Assembly: GCA_025354565.1 (NCBI GenBank)
Contig: JANXMQ010000055.1
Coordinates: forward strand, 1 to 53,898
DNA length: 53,898 bases
Direction: 5' to 3'
Source: Akkermansiaceae bacterium
GTDB taxonomy: Bacteria; Verrucomicrobiota; Verrucomicrobiia; Verrucomicrobiales; Akkermansiaceae
Below, piece by piece: positions 22,235 through 28,550 of the stretch (positions are counted from its first letter, which is position 1; the number at the start of each line of letters is the position of its first letter). A model generated the notes under the pieces. The model saw only the letters and a program-made list of their open reading frames with translations. It made no database searches and was not told where the DNA came from. A program made the translations under genes and the position numbers.

Positions 22235-25200
22235 TCAGTTTTTAAAGAGAGCCACGGCGGCGGTTTTCATTTCCGCAAGTTTTGTCCGGTCCGGCGCGGC
22301 ACCCCTCGCCTGGTCCGGCTTGCCGCCGCCTTTGCCGCCGGCGAGGGCGGCGAGGTCGCGGAGGAGGTCGCCGGCTTTGAGGCCTTTCGCGAGGGCGTCC
22401 GGGCCGCAGTGGGTGGCGAGGTGGAGTTTTTCGCCGTCATCCACGATGAGTAGGGCGGGGCCGGTGAATTGCTTTTTCTTGAGGCCGTTTTGGAGTTCTT
22501 GGAGGAGCGAGGCGTCGGCCTCGAAGGAGACGATGATGGGTTTGCCATTCTTCGTCGCTGAATCGATGAGTTCTGATAGAGCCTCGTCTGCTAGAGATGC
22601 AGCTTGGGCGGATTGGATTTTTTTGATCCGCTTCTCGGCTTCGATGGCGGCGGCTTGAGTTTCCTCAAGTGTGCGCATGCCGTGGTCGTAGGTGGCGTTG
22701 ATCTGGGCGATGTCGGCACGCTCGACGAGCATGGCTCCCATGATGTGCGGGAATTCGTGGGCGATGACGGGTTCTCCGCCGAGAGCTGTTAGTTTTTCGT
22801 TGGCGGCTTTGAGTTTGGCGGCGGCGGCTTTAAGATCATGGTCCCATTTCTCTACAATCTCGCGAATGTGGTCCCAGGCGGCTTGGCCGCAGACGGCTTC
22901 AATGCGGCGGACACCGGAGGCGATGGCACCTTCGGATTTGATTTTGAAAAGGCCGATCTCGCGGGTGTTGCGGACGTGGGTGCCGCCGCAAAGTTCTTGC
23001 GAGTAGCCGTTAAGCGCGTGGGGTTCGCCGCCGATTTGGACGACGCGGACGAGGTCGCCGTATTTGTCGCCGAAGAACTGCATGATGTCCGGGCGGCCTT
23101 TGATGGAGGCGTGGGGGACTTCCTTCCAGCTAACCGAATCGTTGGCCTTGATGGAGGCGTTGACCTTTTCTTCCATGGCGGCGAGTTGCTCGGGCGTGAC
23201 GGCGGCGCTGTTGAAATCGAAGCGTAGGCGGTTTTCATCGACCGAGGAACCCTGCTGCGCGGCGTCGGCGGAAACGACTTCGTGGAGCGCCCAGTGGAGA
23301 AGGTGGGTGGCGGAGTGGTGGGCTTCGATGGGGCGGCGGCGTTGGGTGTCGAGACTCAGGACGACCTTGTCGCCGGGTTTGATTGACGATTGATGATTGT
23401 TGATTTCTGATTTTTGAATGATCAGGGCGCGGGCTTTGCCGATTTGTTGGACGCCGGTGACGGGTAGGCTGGGACTGGAAGTCCCAGCCACTTGAAGAGT
23501 TCCGGTGTCGCCGGATTGGCCGCCCATTTCGGCGTAGAAGACGGTCTTGTTAGTGATGACGAAAAGCGCGTCTTCCTGTGGGTGGATTTCGAGGATGGTG
23601 GCTTCGATGCTGTCATTCTCGAAGCCGGTGAACTCGGTGATGGCATCGGTGGAGATGTCGAGGGCGCGGATGATGTTAGATTTTTGAGCGGCGCGGGAAC
23701 GTTCTTGTTGCTCAGCCATGAGTTCATCAAAGCGTGGCATATCCACTTCGAGTCCGAACTCGGCACAGAGAAGTTCGGTGAGATCGATGGGGAACCCAAA
23801 GGTGTCGTAGAGTTCGAAAGCGATGTCTCCAGAAAAAGGGGAGCACACGCGCCCTCGCGTGTTGTCGGAGACGCCCCCGTCTCCGACATGGCCTGCAGGT
23901 TCACAAAACTCCCGGCACCAGGACCAACCATAGTCCCTCGCTTGCGTCACGAGGCCCTCGGTCACTGGATTGCCAATGATATAGTCATATTTTTCGATGA
24001 GATCGGATTCGCTGCGGATCAGCCGGTCAAACGACTCCTGATCCCAAAGGTGTTTGATGTTTTCATTTTTAAGGACGTTTCTCCGTTCCTTGAGGATCTT
24101 GTGTGAGGTAACGGATTTGATTGGCTGGAGAATTTCCGTAAGCGTGTAAAAAGTTGGGTTCGACTCGGAATCGTATGATTTCACCTGTGGCTCGAAAAGG
24201 AGGTGGACGTGATCCGGCATGACGCACGCGGCGTAGAGGTGGATCTGATTGAGCGAACGGGAGTAAAGGATGGAGTCGAGGACGATGGTGCGTTCGGCTT
24301 CGCTGAGGATGTCGCGGTCCCGGGTGGTGAAGGTGATCATGTATTTCCCCCATGGGCGCTCGAAGTGGGGAAGATTGCGGCGGGTGAAGGTGGGTTCGGA
24401 CGCTTTGGGTGAATTCGGGCCAATCTGAGGCGAGGGCGCCTCAGATAACACGCGAGGGCGCGTGTGCTCCCCGAAGAGTTTCAGACCACGATCCAGCGTT
24501 TGGTTAAAGCTGGATTCTTCCTGTTCGAGTGTTTGTCTAACGACATCCTGGCGGTTTATCAGTTCAGGAAATACCCCGCCCATTTCGCTGACGAGGGTTT
24601 CCACGAGCCCGCCGAAGAACGGCTTTTCTCCTGAGAATCCAAGCTGGCGGCCGTATCTAACGGCGCGGCGGAGGATGCGGCGGAGGACGTAGTTTCTGCC
24701 GTTGTTGCCGGGCATGATGCCGTCGGCGATGGAGAATGATAGAGTCCGCAGGTGGTCGGCGATGACGCGGAAGGCGATAGCGGTTTTCATTTCCTCGGTG
24801 AAGAGGGAACGGTCGGCACCGAGTTCGGGATAGATGTTAGAATACTTTTTTCCGCTGAGTTCTTCGAGCTTGCGGAAGATCGGTTGGAAGACGTCGGTGG
24901 CGTAGTTGCTAGGCTTTTCCGAGAAGTCGGTGAAGCCTTTGGTGTTCTGGATGATCGAACAGGCGCGCTCGAAGCCCATGCCGGTATCGACGTGTTTGGC
25001 GGGGAGCTCGCGGAAGCTGCCGTCGGCCTCGGCGTTGTATTGGATGAAGACGAGGTTCCAGATCTCGATGCAGAGGTCGGAGTCGTTGTTGACCAGGTTG
25101 CGGCCGGTGATGGGGTTGCCTTCGGGTGTTAGATCGACGTGAAGTTCGGAGCAGGGGCCGCAGGGGCCGGTTTCGCCCATCATCCAGAAGTTGTCTTTGA

Positions 25201-25702
25201 CGTTGCCGTGGACGATTTGGACGGCGGGATCACAGCCTTTGGAAACGAAGAGGGCGGCCCAGATGTCGTAGGCTTCCTGGTCGAAGTTGCCGGGATCGCC
25301 TTCCTTCGGCGCGTAAACGGAGGCGTAGAGGCGGTGCGCGGGCAGACCCCAGCGTTCGACGACGAGTTCCCAGGCCCAGGCGATGGCTTCCTTTTTGAAA
25401 TAGTTGCCGAACGACCAGTTTCCTAACATTTCGAAGAACGTGTGGTGATAGGTGTCGTAGCCGACATCCTCGAGATCGTTGTGCTTGCCGCCGGCGCGGA
25501 TGCATTTTTGGGTATCGGCGGCGCGCGGTGGATCGTAGGGGGCTTTTTCGACGCCCAGGAAATACGGGACGAACGGGTTCATCCCGGCGTTCGTGAACAG
25601 CAGGCCGGGCGACTGGGGGAGCAGCGAGGCGGAGGGGACGATGGTGTGCTGTTTTTCTCTGAAAAAATCGAGGAACGATTGGCGGATTTCGGCGGAGGTC
25701 AT
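22235..25702 (-). CDS. alaS: Alanyl-tRNA synthetase with an in-frame transposase insertion
   Basis: A single 1155-codon frame. Class II catalytic core 1-410 (FTNAGMNPFVPYFLG, HHTFFEMLGNWSFGNYF, ETGPCGPCSE), then about 212 foreign residues (412-623), then the AlaRS frame resumes at FSGDIAFELYDTFGFPIDL. The editing domain carries HHSATHLLH and CGGTH (zinc/catalytic residues), and a C-terminal DHHA1-type domain follows. Without the insertion the enzyme would be about 944 residues. The foreign part is a Y1/RAYT transposase with terminal hairpins. Two further repeat-derived segments lie in the editing domain (23467-23489, about 23379-23410). The enzyme is essential, so the protein must either tolerate the insertion or another alaS copy must exist. 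Confidence 0.92.
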   Translation of the reverse strand: MTSAEIRQSFLDFFREKQHTIVPSASLLPQSPGLLFTNAGMNPFVPYFLGVEKAPYDPPRAADTQKCIRAGGKHNDLEDVGYDTYHHTFFEMLGNWSFGNYFKKEAIAWAWELVVERWGLPAHRLYASVYAPKEGDPGNFDQEAYDIWAALFVSKGCDPAVQIVHGNVKDNFWMMGETGPCGPCSELHVDLTPEGNPITGRNLVNNDSDLCIEIWNLVFIQYNAEADGSFRELPAKHVDTGMGFERACSIIQNTKGFTDFSEKPSNYATDVFQPIFRKLEELSGKKYSNIYPELGADRSLFTEEMKTAIAFRVIADHLRTLSFSIADGIMPGNNGRNYVLRRILRRAVRYGRQLGFSGEKPFFGGLVETLVSEMGGVFPELINRQDVVRQTLEQEESSFNQTLDRGLKLFGEHTRPRVLSEAPSPQIGPNSPKASEPTFTRRNLPHFERPWGKYMITFTTRDRDILSEAERTIVLDSILYSRSLNQIHLYAACVMPDHVHLLFEPQVKSYDSESNPTFYTLTEILQPIKSVTSHKILKERRNVLKNENIKHLWDQESFDRLIRSESDLIEKYDYIIGNPVTEGLVTQARDYGWSWCREFCEPAGHVGDGGVSDNTRGRVCSPFSGDIAFELYDTFGFPIDLTELLCAEFGLEVDMPRFDELMAEQQERSRAAQKSNIIRALDISTDAITEFTGFENDSIEATILEIHPQEDALFVITNKTVFYAEMGGQSGDTGTLQVAGTSSPSLPVTGVQQIGKARALIIQKSEINNHQSSIKPGDKVVLSLDTQRRRPIEAHHSATHLLHWALHEVVSADAAQQGSSVDENRLRFDFNSAAVTPEQLAAMEEKVNASIKANDSVSWKEVPHASIKGRPDIMQFFGDKYGDLVRVVQIGGEPHALNGYSQELCGGTHVRNTREIGLFKIKSEGAIASGVRRIEAVCGQAAWDHIREIVEKWDHDLKAAAAKLKAANEKLTALGGEPVIAHEFPHIMGAMLVERADIAQINATYDHGMRTLEETQAAAIEAEKRIKKIQSAQAASLADEALSELIDSATKNGKPIIVSFEADASLLQELQNGLKKKQFTGPALLIVDDGEKLHLATHCGPDALAKGLKAGDLLRDLAALAGGKGGGKPDQARGAAPDRTKLAEMKTAAVALFKN
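23379..23410. repeat. Dispersed AT-rich repeat inside alaS
   Basis: GATTGACGATTGATGATTG followed by TTGATTT recurs in variant form at 52356-52388, and inverted at 52311-52325. Here it is translated within the AlaRS editing domain as part of SEINNHQSSIKPG, an insertion-like loop. Confidence 0.6.
23467..23489. repeat. Perfect palindrome inside alaS
   Basis: The arms GGCTGGGACT and AGTCCCAGCC enclose a GGA loop. In the alaS frame it encodes TSSPSLP between two editing-domain strands. It looks like a short mobile palindrome captured in the coding sequence. Confidence 0.65.
23838..24472 (-). mobile_element. REP/RAYT element inserted in alaS
   Basis: A 635-bp element bounded by perfect 26-bp inverted terminal repeats (23838-23863 and 24447-24472). 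Each holds a hairpin with arms ACACGCG/CGCGTGT. A second perfect hairpin lies inside each end: 23864-23887 (10-bp arms) and 24425-24444 (8-bp arms). Between them the minus strand encodes a Y1/RAYT domain: RRNLPHFERPWGKYMITF, the HUH motif MPDHVHLLF and a C-terminal block WDQESFDRLIRSESD, YIIGNPVTEGLVTQARDYGW. The position where many relatives have Tyr (ES-Y-DR) appears to be Phe, so transposition activity is uncertain. An internal ATG at 24340 could allow separate translation. Confidence 0.88.
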
Positions 25703-25859: not shown

Positions 25860-28409
25860 TCATTTGCGGGTGAGGAAGCCGTCGGGATCGAGGAAACAAC
25901 CGGCGGGGAGCGGCAGGCCGGCTTCCGGGGCGGCGGGGCCATGGGCGCGGAGGTTGCCATTTTCAGCGGGCAGGAGAAACCAACCGGGGAGGAGTTTTCC
26001 CCAAGTACCGGGTTTGTGGCCGGGCTGGAATTCGCTGTCCGCCTCGGGTCCGGGCGGATGCGGCATGGACATCGCGACAACCGTTCCGGCGACCGCCAAG
26101 CAGGGCAGGTGCAGCAGGTCCGCACGGTAAACCGGATCCAGCGCGCTTGGCCCAAAGTCGTAAAATAGGATTTTAGCCGCCAATTGTGTGACGCCTAACA
26201 TGGTTCGCAAGACATCGCCACCGACCCATGACGCGGCTTGTGCGCCATCGACGTGATCGTGGGATTTCACCGTGGCGGCGAAGAGTTCGGGAAATGTTAG
26301 CAGCAGGCCGGGGATCTCCAACACCACCGGATCGCCCGTTAGAATACAAAACGCCTGCTGCCGTTGCAACGCGTTGATCTGCCCGATCTGGTGGCCATTG
26401 ATCCATATCCGGCGGCGGGCGAACTCACCCGCCGTGCGGAAATTCTCCACAGCGGCGCCATTTCCCAAGGGCACCCGCTGGCCCCAATCGAGCGTGTCGA
26501 AGCGCTTGGCCATCGCCGCCGCAGAACAGACCAACATGCTTTGCCTAACGGTTTCCAAATCCGCCGCGTCCGGGGCGATTTCCCGACCGAAGGCGATGCT
26601 GATGGGAAAGGGCAGATGGTAAGGCAGCTTGCGGAAAAATTTGCCGCGTTCGTAGGAGAAAATCGAACCCCATGTGCCGTCACACCACATCGGGATCAGC
26701 GGGTGATCGGCCTTTTTCGCAATCAGCTCGAAGCCCCGGCGGAGGCCCGCGAGGGTGCCGGTGCGGGTCAGTTGGCCCTCGGGAAATAGGCAGACGAGGT
26801 CGCCGTTTTTCAAGGCGTCGATGGTGATGCGGATGGCCTCGCGCGGCTGGTCGCGGCGGATGGTGACGGTATTGAAAATGCTAACAAACAGCCGGATCGA
26901 GCGGCGCGCCATGAAGGCCTCGTCCATGACGAAACGGACCGGTCGCGGACAGACGGCGGAAATGTAAAACGCATCCGCGAAGGTGACGTGGTTCGGCAGC
27001 AGCAGCGCCCCGCCCTTGGCCGGGATACGCTCGGGGTGGACGGTCTTGATTCGATAGAGCGAACGAATCAAGACCCCACCTAACAGGCGGATAACATCGC
27101 CTGGCAAGAGCCGGAGGATCGACAGGCTCATGCCGCCGCAGATCACGCCGATGAAGATCATCTCCACCCGAAAGCCCATCGCGGTGGCCATACCGGCGGA
27201 TTTCACGCTGTATTCGATCACGCCGATCATTACTACGGCGATGATGCCCGCCATGCAGTCCTGGAGATTCACCGCAGATTGCAGCTCGCCGCGTTTGGCC
27301 GCCGGGTAGCGGTCCTGCATCCATGCGCTTAGGGGGGCGAGAAATACGGCGGCGGAAAATGCCAGCAGCGCGAGGGTTGTTAGGAAAAGCCAGCCGCCGG
27401 GGGTTAGGAAGGCCAGCAGCAGCGCCGTTAGAGTCATCGCCGCTGCGGCGACTGGCACCCAAGCGAGGTCGATGCGTTTGCGCAGCAGGAAGGACGCGAA
27501 ACCAAAACCCGCCGCCATGCCGAGCGAGGCCGCCGCGATAAATTTCGACGACAGCGTGCCGAAGCCCTCACCACCGCCGGTCATTTCCTCGGCAACTTTG
27601 AATGACCAGAGGTTGATAAAAGCGGCGAAACCCCAGAAAAACGCCACGCCGAACGACGCACGCCGCAGCGGTCCGTCGCGCCACAGATCCGCTAGATTGA
27701 GGAAATGGCTGATCGCCAGTTTCGCGGTGAATTTCGCCCCGCCCTGAGCCGGCACCTTTGGGATCGCCCAGGCCATCGCTAGGGCAGGAATCGAGAGCCC
27801 TGCCAGCCAAAGCAAGGGAATGAGCGCCGCGTGCCATGCCACGTCATCCCCGCCGCCATGCCCCTTGAAGCGGTGATCGAACAAGCCGCCAGCGACGATT
27901 TGCCCGGTGAGAATCGCCAGCATCGCCGACATTTGTTGGATTCCCGCCGCGAAGCCGAGGTGCTTCGAGCCGACGAGTTCCTTGTTGATCCCGATTTTCG
28001 CCGGACTAAAAAACGCCGACTGCACCGCCAGTGCGAAAAACCCGCAGAGTGCGGCTGGCATGTTTTGCAGCATCACCGAGACACAAATCCAGCCGAGCAC
28101 CAGCACCTGCGTGATCGCCGCACCCAGCATCACGCTGCGTTTGGAAAAGCGGTCGCTCACCCAGCCCGCGAGCGGCGCGAAGAGCACCATCGGCAGCGCC
28201 ATCAGCAGGCCAGCCGCCGAGGGCACGTCCACCTCCACCCCCGCGCCGACGGGGATCATTACCGAAAAACCAACAGCCGCGCCCAGCGGGATCAGGGTGA
28301 ATTGGGCGAGCTTGTCGTTGAAAGCGTTCTGCGTTTGCAGGACAATCATGCTCCAAAAGCCCAGCCACTGGCGGCGGGTGGGTTCGTTTTCAGGCAGTTC
28401 GTCAGACAT
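25860..28409 (-). CDS. MFS transporter fused to a PlsC-type acyltransferase
   Basis: An 849-residue protein. Residues 1-430 are an LplT-like MFS transporter (FWSMIVLQTQNAFNDKLAQF, then FAPLAGWVSDRFSKRSVMLG). From about 440 a PlsC domain follows, with LLPNHVTFADAF (NHxxxxD) and VCLFPEGQLTRTG. The last 210 residues match no family I recognise. In the known architecture of lysophospholipid recycling, LplT flips the lysolipid and Aas acylates it; this fusion would couple both. The C-terminal region sits where Aas has its acyl-ACP synthetase domain but shows no AMP-binding motif. ATG 28409 is chosen over an upstream start that lacks any domain. Confidence 0.88.
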   Translation of the reverse strand: MSDELPENEPTRRQWLGFWSMIVLQTQNAFNDKLAQFTLIPLGAAVGFSVMIPVGAGVEVDVPSAAGLLMALPMVLFAPLAGWVSDRFSKRSVMLGAAITQVLVLGWICVSVMLQNMPAALCGFFALAVQSAFFSPAKIGINKELVGSKHLGFAAGIQQMSAMLAILTGQIVAGGLFDHRFKGHGGGDDVAWHAALIPLLWLAGLSIPALAMAWAIPKVPAQGGAKFTAKLAISHFLNLADLWRDGPLRRASFGVAFFWGFAAFINLWSFKVAEEMTGGGEGFGTLSSKFIAAASLGMAAGFGFASFLLRKRIDLAWVPVAAAAMTLTALLLAFLTPGGWLFLTTLALLAFSAAVFLAPLSAWMQDRYPAAKRGELQSAVNLQDCMAGIIAVVMIGVIEYSVKSAGMATAMGFRVEMIFIGVICGGMSLSILRLLPGDVIRLLGGVLIRSLYRIKTVHPERIPAKGGALLLPNHVTFADAFYISAVCPRPVRFVMDEAFMARRSIRLFVSIFNTVTIRRDQPREAIRITIDALKNGDLVCLFPEGQLTRTGTLAGLRRGFELIAKKADHPLIPMWCDGTWGSIFSYERGKFFRKLPYHLPFPISIAFGREIAPDAADLETVRQSMLVCSAAAMAKRFDTLDWGQRVPLGNGAAVENFRTAGEFARRRIWINGHQIGQINALQRQQAFCILTGDPVVLEIPGLLLTFPELFAATVKSHDHVDGAQAASWVGGDVLRTMLGVTQLAAKILFYDFGPSALDPVYRADLLHLPCLAVAGTVVAMSMPHPPGPEADSEFQPGHKPGTWGKLLPGWFLLPAENGNLRAHGPAAPEAGLPLPAGCFLDPDGFLTRK

Positions 28410-28550
28410 TCGTGGCGGACCGTAGCCCCCGGATGCGGCCCCGGCAAGAAGTAGGAGCATGGATTATCCGGCCAAGGAATCCACACCGGGAAGCGGGCTT
28501 TCTGCCCATCGGCACCCGGGCCCCGGGGAAAATTCTCGGAGCTACAGAGT

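Follow-up and report, generated by a model that had tools for sequence, protein, structure and literature searches.

An in-frame RAYT transposon in alanyl-tRNA synthetase and embedded RAYTs in other core enzymes of the Verrucomicrobiota

REP-associated tyrosine transposases (RAYTs, also called TnpA-REP) have been described as the products of their own genes. Here we report a complete RAYT element that lies in frame within alaS, the alanyl-tRNA synthetase (AlaRS) gene, of an Akkermansiaceae bacterium (NCBI GenBank assembly GCA_025354565.1, contig JANXMQ010000055.1, positions 1 to 53,898; this whole stretch of 53,898 nucleotides is referred to as the window). It shares with RAYTs and REPtrons/TIRtrons a Y1/HUH domain that includes Tyr and Asn, hairpin-forming repeats at its ends, dispersed copies resembling repetitive extragenic palindromes (REPs), and, as judged in a phylum sample, one match of this lineage per genome. 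In contrast to the known ones, the RAYTs described here are domains of host enzymes that lack a stop codon of their own and mostly lack an ATG of their own. We consider it likely that a core enzyme carries this transposon as a domain that is translated with it and folds separately, and that the transposon uses the promoter, start, and stop of its host while still serving its REP family.

Inteins and homing endonucleases are in-frame mobile elements that occupy fixed sites of conserved genes, are patchily distributed, and are exchanged between species. The embedded RAYTs resemble inteins in each of these respects. They differ in that no splicing domain was matched, the insert seems to be retained in the protein, and the enzyme is an HUH transposase.

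Excerpts of PMC3733652 describe TIRtrons with long inverted repeats and a GGGG-type motif, which takes the form GGGGWSAS in some but not all of them. On that description the present element is TIRtron-like in having long inverted repeats with a GGGG-type motif, but its ends, GGGGAGCA, do not match the TIRtron/TIRYT motif GGGGWSAS and differ from it at the seventh and eighth letters. The same excerpts report REPs of 20 to 82 amino acids (aa) inside open reading frames (ORFs), among them ORFs of tRNA synthetases and of O. terrae genes (presumably the Verrucomicrobiota species Opitutus terrae). Translated palindromic mobile DNA inside housekeeping proteins is common to these in-frame REPs, to the palindromic elements of Rickettsia, and to the locus described here; as far as the excerpts go, the former are repeats of ∼20 to 82 aa without a transposase, whereas here a whole, conserved transposase gene is embedded. 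With its full RAYT domain, the window's element is not a Rickettsia-type palindromic element, i.e., a short palindrome without a transposase. In the excerpts of a classification of Y1 proteins (PMC6006769), in-frame REPs are found inside tnpA-REP itself in TnpA-REP subclass 2.4, and unexpectedly long proteins were excluded on the grounds that they were fusions or annotation errors. The read-through in-frame insertion of subclass 2.4, so described, is shared with our elements, but in that case the transposase contains the REP, whereas in ours a host enzyme contains the transposon. A search of the open-licence PMC literature yielded no description of complete RAYTs within housekeeping enzymes, subscription papers being outside the scope of that search.

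The alaS frame and its embedded element

An earlier note on this DNA, made by a model from the letters alone, had read the window's alaS as one uninterrupted frame of 1155 codons, and this is what we find (Table 1). The predicted protein matches TIGR00344 at 759 bits (cut-off, 457) and contains the class II core, editing motifs, and C-Ala of alanyl-tRNA synthetases; the HHxxxH and CxxxH residues are invariant in 21 fusions. Pfam domains of the synthetase, including tRNA_SAD (residues 885 to 935) and DHHA1 (residues 1061 to 1154), flank a Y1_Tnp match at residues 454 to 557, in agreement with the note's statement that the AlaRS motifs are intact on both sides. No second alaS, a finding that could have undermined the fusion, was detected in the window's genome (5.1 Mb, 257 contigs, 95.4% complete).

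Sequence and folding also bear out the description of a complete 635-bp element with perfect 26-bp ends and two hairpins at each end. The outermost 26 nucleotides, read from the sequence, are perfect inverted repeats within 49-nucleotide arms that are 88% complementary. The two hairpins at one end have a folding energy of -30.2 kcal/mol (z = -3.3; 1/200 shuffles as good), and those at the other end have -31.8 kcal/mol (z = -1.9; 10/200 shuffles as good). The AlaRS residues around the ends are Gly-Glu and Pro-Phe. There is no stop codon in the AlaRS frame and an upstream ATG is rare in embedded copies, so the element lacks the usual RAYT trait of being a free-standing gene, which we treat as a common feature rather than a chemical definition of the family. 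Neither Pfam nor NCBIfam gave a HINT/intein match in the window's AlaRS, which therefore lacks the combination of a HINT domain and nucleophilic junction residues expected of an intein, and Rfam gave only one sub-threshold match for the insert, to a family other than introns. This makes the intein-like removal that had been suggested for the insert unlikely.

The RAYT domain matches NF047646 over AlaRS residues 446 to 594 at 89.1 bits (cut-off, 80) and matches 4er8 in a profile comparison (E = 5.5e-7). Alignments, including ones with 4er8, show that it has the HUH motif of class 2 Y1 transposases as well as their catalytic Tyr and the Asn after it. The Tyr of 4er8 (residue 115, counted from the alignment), which we take to be the catalytic residue, aligns with Tyr574 of the window's AlaRS. 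The earlier statement that this position reads Phe is thus mistaken, and with the catalytic Tyr present the domain is not visibly "tamed," as had been proposed. Across 122 embedded RAYTs, the two His residues are conserved in 120/122 and 122/122, the Tyr in 121/122, and the Asn in 122/122.

Modeled alone with AlphaFold2 (AF2), the RAYT domain has a mean pLDDT of 92 and a pTM of 0.87, and its best match in the Protein Data Bank (PDB) is 4er8 (E = 1e-7, TM = 0.62), i.e., it has the TnpA-REP fold. A whole-protein model from a 21-row alignment has a mean pLDDT of 71.5 and a pTM of 0.40; the AlaRS core is poorly modeled in it, and it says nothing about how the domains pack. In this model the RAYT blocks have pLDDT values of 60 to 91, mostly above 73, while blocks 411 to 450 and 601 to 620, which largely correspond to the end repeats, have values of 29 to 47. 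Foldseek matched the whole-protein model both to AlaRS structures and to 4er8 (E = 1.9e-5).

Selection on the insert was assessed from the ratio of nonsynonymous (dN) to synonymous (dS) divergence between AlaRS fusions, separately for the two element types described below. The median dN/dS in type 1 (78 pairs) is 0.115 for the RAYT and 0.128 for AlaRS, and that in type 2 (10 pairs) is 0.123 and 0.122, respectively, with saturated pairs dropped, 3 of the 10 in type 2. These values indicate that the insert is not decaying and that purifying selection on the RAYT is as strong as that on AlaRS. Together, the conserved catalytic residues and this selection make the embedded RAYT look active. The suggestion that the open fusion is under selection stands.

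Table 1. Coordinates of alaS and of its embedded element in the window
Feature	Position	Strand	Basis or remark
alaS with embedded RAYT	22235..25702	minus	one open frame from 25702 to 22235, 1155 codons
AlaRS N-terminal class II core, residues 1-413	24464..25702	minus	Pfam PF01411 (tRNA-synt_2c), best stretch 5-413
Upstream element end: terminal inverted repeat, two hairpins, predicted to be translated as a low-confidence linker	24424..24472	minus	
Whole RAYT element, 635 nucleotides, in the AlaRS frame	23838..24472	minus	same type and site in 12 other same-genus AlaRS
RAYT (HUH/Y1) domain, ∼residues 443-594	23921..24376	minus	NF047646; AF2 model; best PDB match 4er8
ATG (Met455), internal start proposed in the earlier note	24338..24340	minus	inside the domain's first strand
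HUH motif His498-Val499-His500	24203..24211	minus	alignment of AlaRS-embedded RAYTs
Catalytic Tyr574 (Tyr of DYIIGNPV)	23981..23983	minus	alignment with 4er8
Downstream element end: terminal inverted repeat, two hairpins, predicted to be translated as a low-confidence linker	23838..23886	minus	
AlaRS remainder: LYDTFGFP segment, editing domain, C-Ala/DHHA1	22238..23836	minus	Pfam PF07973, PF02272

Embedded RAYTs in the genus and across the phylum

The genus sample consisted of 73 genomes. Its AlaRS tree holds 57 sequences and omits five rows dropped by the anchors (G011, G072, G044, G058, and G015) as well as the second alaS of G037. Thirteen of the 57 AlaRS, the window's included, carry the type-1 element, 5 carry a type-2 element, and 39 carry neither; all fusions are in frame. 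The type-2 element occupies the same linker, has a RAYT 45 to 50% identical to that of type 1, and has different ends. Pieces of RAYT were also found within the partial AlaRS of G011, G058, and G015. This distribution indicates that the AlaRS fusion is old and shared across the genus, and because it recurs in many genomes, the in-frame arrangement is more than chance. An assembly chimera, which had been named as a possible refutation, was rejected since the same fusion occurs in many genomes and also in Ereboglobus sp. PH5-10 (locus L220), whose record is not titled as a metagenome-assembled genome (MAG) and whose fusion frame is cut by the contig start.

In AlaRS without an element, the empty linker from TLDRGLK to LYDTFGFP is ∼21 aa long. 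Apparent remnants persist in three genomes: the AlaRS of G029 retains the first four type-1 codons (GEHT) without a RAYT, and those of G032 and G049 have type-2-like ends, in frame, without the transposase. Separately, an extra ∼25 to 60 aa with no obvious RAYT or REP signature were seen at this linker in G040, G062, G028, G018, G069, and G005; the linker of G040 (L093) is 73 aa long versus 21 in the closely related G035 (L090) and G038 (L092). The second alaS of G037 (L107, G037:C28) is 52% identical over its first part to the RAYT-bearing alaS beside which it occurs and may be a paralogue or a contaminating contig.

The window's genome contains two further in-frame RAYTs, both of a lineage other than that in AlaRS. 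One is in leucyl-tRNA synthetase (LeuRS; L055, 1072 aa), where the insert is in the region of the editing domain and the Pfam match ends at position 143/185, and one is in IspG (L053, 828 aa). A survey of the 73 genomes with NF047646, in which 40 regions were retrieved, gave further fusions in IspG, MetH, LeuRS, and HsdR among the matches listed. Host identity was confirmed by NCBIfam for seven fusion examples and by Pfam for an eighth with a PriA domain. By tally, one or more embedded RAYTs are present in at least 37 of the 73 genomes, counting the IspG copy of G029.

A collection of 84,980 species was scanned with the AlaRS-RAYT alignment only, and the best 79 of 155 relatives were examined as loci. 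Their titles name Verrucomicrobiota groups in 77 cases, Kiritimatiellaeota in one, and only "bacterium" in one, and the closest titled AlaRS fusions belong to Akkermansiaceae/Verrucomicrobiota MAGs. Assigned by sequence patterns, the hosts are AlaRS (37, plus 4 at a second site), RecG (19), MetH (11, at two sites), and threonyl-tRNA synthetase (ThrRS; 4); of the four unlabelled loci, L208 carries a PriA domain and L226 looks like RecG. In 69/79 loci the RAYT has no fewer than 100 aa of its own frame on each side, and six loci are open but cut by a contig end (L207, L208, L211, L220, L226, and L233); altogether, 75/79 keep the RAYT within a longer open frame up to the limits of the contig. Two frames hold two RAYTs each: a 1540-aa AlaRS frame of a Pedosphaera sp. 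MAG (L209) has them at two sites with different end repeats, and a MetH frame of Verrucomicrobia MAG AV37 (L257) has one at each of the two MetH sites, with the contig start cutting into the first.

In a phylum sample of 288 genomes, 7, including the window's, carry the AlaRS-RAYT lineage at an E value of 1e-25 or better, each with one lineage match in a frame of 730 to 1316 aa. As a control, the best NF047646 matches in the same 288 genomes are mostly in short frames; by eye, 8 among the matches listed reach 790 aa. The host assignments indicate that in-frame embedding is not special to AlaRS and extends to LeuRS, IspG, RecG, MetH, ThrRS, PriA, and HsdR.

In G032, a 2003-aa frame (L173) with a DNA-methylase-like motif, recognized by eye only, has an in-frame RAYT inside. 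HsdR frames also contain in-frame RAYTs; L145, L153, and L171 were listed with L173, and L153 was confirmed as HsdR. The HsdR and methylase-like fusions suggest that defence genes serve as hosts as well as core genes.

Translation signals set embedded copies apart from free RAYTs. In the 45 codons upstream of the RAYT core, 18/21 free RAYTs have an ATG, versus 16/77 and 4/40 embedded ones (pooled Fisher test, P = 1.6e-9), and no stop codon before the host resumes was found in embedded copies that are open on the downstream side. Comparison with the free RAYTs thus points to a clear loss of the ATG in embedded ones.

Turnover at the insertion sites and dispersed REP copies

Embedded RAYTs cluster by host gene, with 8 label changes on an 80-row tree versus 46.8 when labels are shuffled. 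Within a host, element and host can part ways. The IspG of G003 and G004 are 97.9% identical upstream, yet their RAYTs are only 69.5% identical, while those of G003 and G005 are 92.2% identical upstream and their RAYTs are 98.6% identical (the G003 region is cut downstream). The AlaRS of G055, G021, and G042 are ∼95% identical in most bins, yet they hold type 1, type 2, and nothing, respectively. The AlaRS host tree implies 8 changes for type 1, of which starred branches force at least 6; for type 2 they force at least 5. Type 1 is more clustered than shuffled labels (8 versus 11.7 changes, as low in 1/500), and type 2 is not. On a wide tree, built quickly and with 43 open forks, the AlaRS-embedded RAYTs imply 11 changes if the best tree is taken and a minimum of 2 if only starred branches count. 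These comparisons indicate that elements have been exchanged at fixed sites, most clearly in IspG. The earlier note missed both this turnover and the spread beyond AlaRS.

Three simpler histories were considered and set aside. The forced changes on the AlaRS host tree reject the idea that AlaRS gained the element once and then passed it on strictly vertically. Identity in 90- or 150-nucleotide bins is not raised at the site, and co-conversion of the element together with long flanks was therefore rejected. Pure recent spread in AlaRS is unsupported, as the insert's dS is no lower than the host's. As a side observation, the IspG of G048 (L182) has its RAYT at a different protein position than in other genomes.

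The RAYT of the window is flanked by inverted repeats that are also dispersed in the genome, as is typical of RAYTs. A 60-nucleotide probe of the type-1 end gave at least five matches in 13/14 type-1 genomes versus 4/47 others (Fisher test, P = 4.7e-9); the partial G011 was counted as type 1, 12 of the 73 genomes, those whose AlaRS was incomplete or undetected, were excluded, and the counts include the element's own ends and are limited by the candidates scored. Among the 12 genomes left out, G002, G027, and G068 also hold many copies. Type-1-like ends in the window's genome (G000) occur as inverted pairs, and one REP family there has six very similar copies in different places, two of them seen partly. 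No RAYT close to the AlaRS-embedded one was found elsewhere in the window's genome, and therefore the AlaRS-embedded RAYT is the likely source of the movement of these REP copies. A search for REP-site polymorphism found a neighboring gene but no informative empty site.

Two further features of the REP pairs in G000 were noted. The type-1 pairs L044, L049, and L050 have similar TGTCTCGTAAA-like flanks, as if nested in another repeat family. The pairs L033, L034, L036, and L045 form a family with an extra outer inverted repeat beyond the RAYT-type ends, GGCGATCAAGCTAGGG on one side in 3/4 copies and its complement on the other side, and therefore another transposase may also move this family.

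A transposase probably kept as an enzyme domain, and the alternatives

The open fusion, its recurrence, the catalytic residues, purifying selection, turnover at fixed sites, and co-occurrence with REPs are brought together if the transposon persists as an enzyme domain. Transcription and translation of alaS would produce an AlaRS-RAYT fusion whose promoter, ribosome site, start, and stop all come from the host gene. The end repeats would be translated as two flexible linkers, with the RAYT folding alone as a tethered domain between the AlaRS core and remainder, and the position of the insert in a linker would allow AlaRS to remain functional. The AlaRS-borne RAYT would probably still bind and cut single-stranded hairpin ends, both those of its own element and those of the dispersed REP-type copies. 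In-frame insertion in an indispensable gene would guarantee expression and make deletion costly, with removal possible only by an exact in-frame change, and this would explain why the lineage is found almost only in indispensable genes. We infer from these sequences that the full-length fusion is made, that it is active, and that it is maintained by being trapped in an essential frame.

A broader proposition, to which we give an even chance, is that a class of transposons normally exists as a translated, non-spliced domain of essential enzymes. Such elements would lack a stop, promoter, and ATG of their own, have end repeats that are read through, be exchanged at or target fixed permissive sites (in alaS, recG, metH, thrS, leuS, and ispG), and mobilize REPs as a fusion, an intein-like life history without splicing.

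Several observations weigh against the RAYT persisting as an active, translated enzyme domain. When ATG, GTG, and TTG are counted together, a possible start is present in 61/77 and 36/40 embedded versus 20/21 free RAYTs, which slightly lowers our confidence, and a Shine-Dalgarno (SD)-like stretch precedes a possible start in 17/77 and 2/40 versus 5/21; for some embedded copies the 45-codon stretch extends into host sequence. In four of the 79 loci (L216, L242, L248, and L252) the RAYT does not lie in a longer open frame, the IspG copy of G029 has its upstream part in a different frame, and the tallies exclude two long frames (L149 and L174) in which the RAYT is at the extreme end and the flanks are unrecognized. 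Catalytic residues are replaced in three copies, with Ser for Tyr in G025 and Tyr for the first His in L227 and L245. In AlaRS, element DNA identity mostly tracks host identity, and the median dS of the RAYT (1.14) is not below that of the host (0.82), values near or above 1 being unreliable; most type-1 AlaRS copies therefore look old rather than recently moved. The REP test ignores kinship between genomes, and REP copies are numerous in G018, G023, G028, and G041, which lack a type-1 AlaRS. Finally, most carrier genomes are draft MAGs.

Domestication, in which the RAYT would be an accessory domain of AlaRS, e.g., for nucleic acid binding, selected for host benefit and not for transposition, seems to us unlikely. 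It would account for purifying selection equal to that on AlaRS, for the mostly parallel divergence of insert and host in AlaRS, and for the single lineage match per genome. A host function of this kind does not sit well with the presence of the same RAYT lineage in unrelated enzymes (RecG, MetH, ThrRS, and AlaRS), with a site that in close relatives is often empty, refilled with the other type, or occupied by remnants, or with the retention of hairpin ends, dispersed copies, and the full catalytic set.

We also give little credence to a tolerated passenger, i.e., a translated but idle RAYT left over because in-frame insertions at permissive places of essential genes survive while others are purged. 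The insertions do lie between domains (AlaRS and one MetH site) or where the host match resumes beyond them, and the remnants without a RAYT core in G029, G032, and G049 do persist in frame. An idle passenger would not be expected to show a dN/dS of ∼0.12 and near-complete conservation of catalytic residues, nor would it explain the recent exchange of elements at the IspG site.

Translation of the RAYT also or only from an internal start, which would make the fusion incidental, is very improbable. The minority of embedded copies that keep an upstream ATG, and the larger number with some ATG, GTG, or TTG, are in its favor. The start put forward earlier, ATG 24340, is a poor one because it sits within the first strand of the RAYT domain and is replaced by Leu or Phe in 4/5 type-2 relatives; more generally, the ATG is usually absent where free RAYTs have one, an SD-like stretch is uncommon, and the embedded copies have no stop of their own. 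Hidden splicing, by which the element would be removed from mRNA or protein to leave a normal AlaRS, recalls inteins and homing introns in its fixed sites in conserved genes, patchy distribution, and exchange, but it is scarcely credible given the HINT/intein and Rfam results above and the end-to-end open frame of 75/79 loci, which an RNA-spliced element would not need.

If the RAYT does persist as a translated domain, a bacterial transposase can be maintained over the long term in an essential enzyme without a splicing step, and ∼200 additional residues at particular positions are tolerated by aminoacyl-tRNA synthetases, a helicase, and methionine synthase. This suggests how a RAYT can stay expressed while being difficult to lose, and it offers a natural test of reading-frame addiction. 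AlaRS, RecG, and MetH sequences from Verrucomicrobiota that appear "too long" need not be annotation errors, and the sites of embedded RAYTs point protein engineers to natural insertion sites.

Beside alaS in the window, an 866-aa ORF (positions 25860 to 28460, minus strand) appears by eye to encode a major facilitator superfamily (MFS)-type transporter fused to an acyltransferase.

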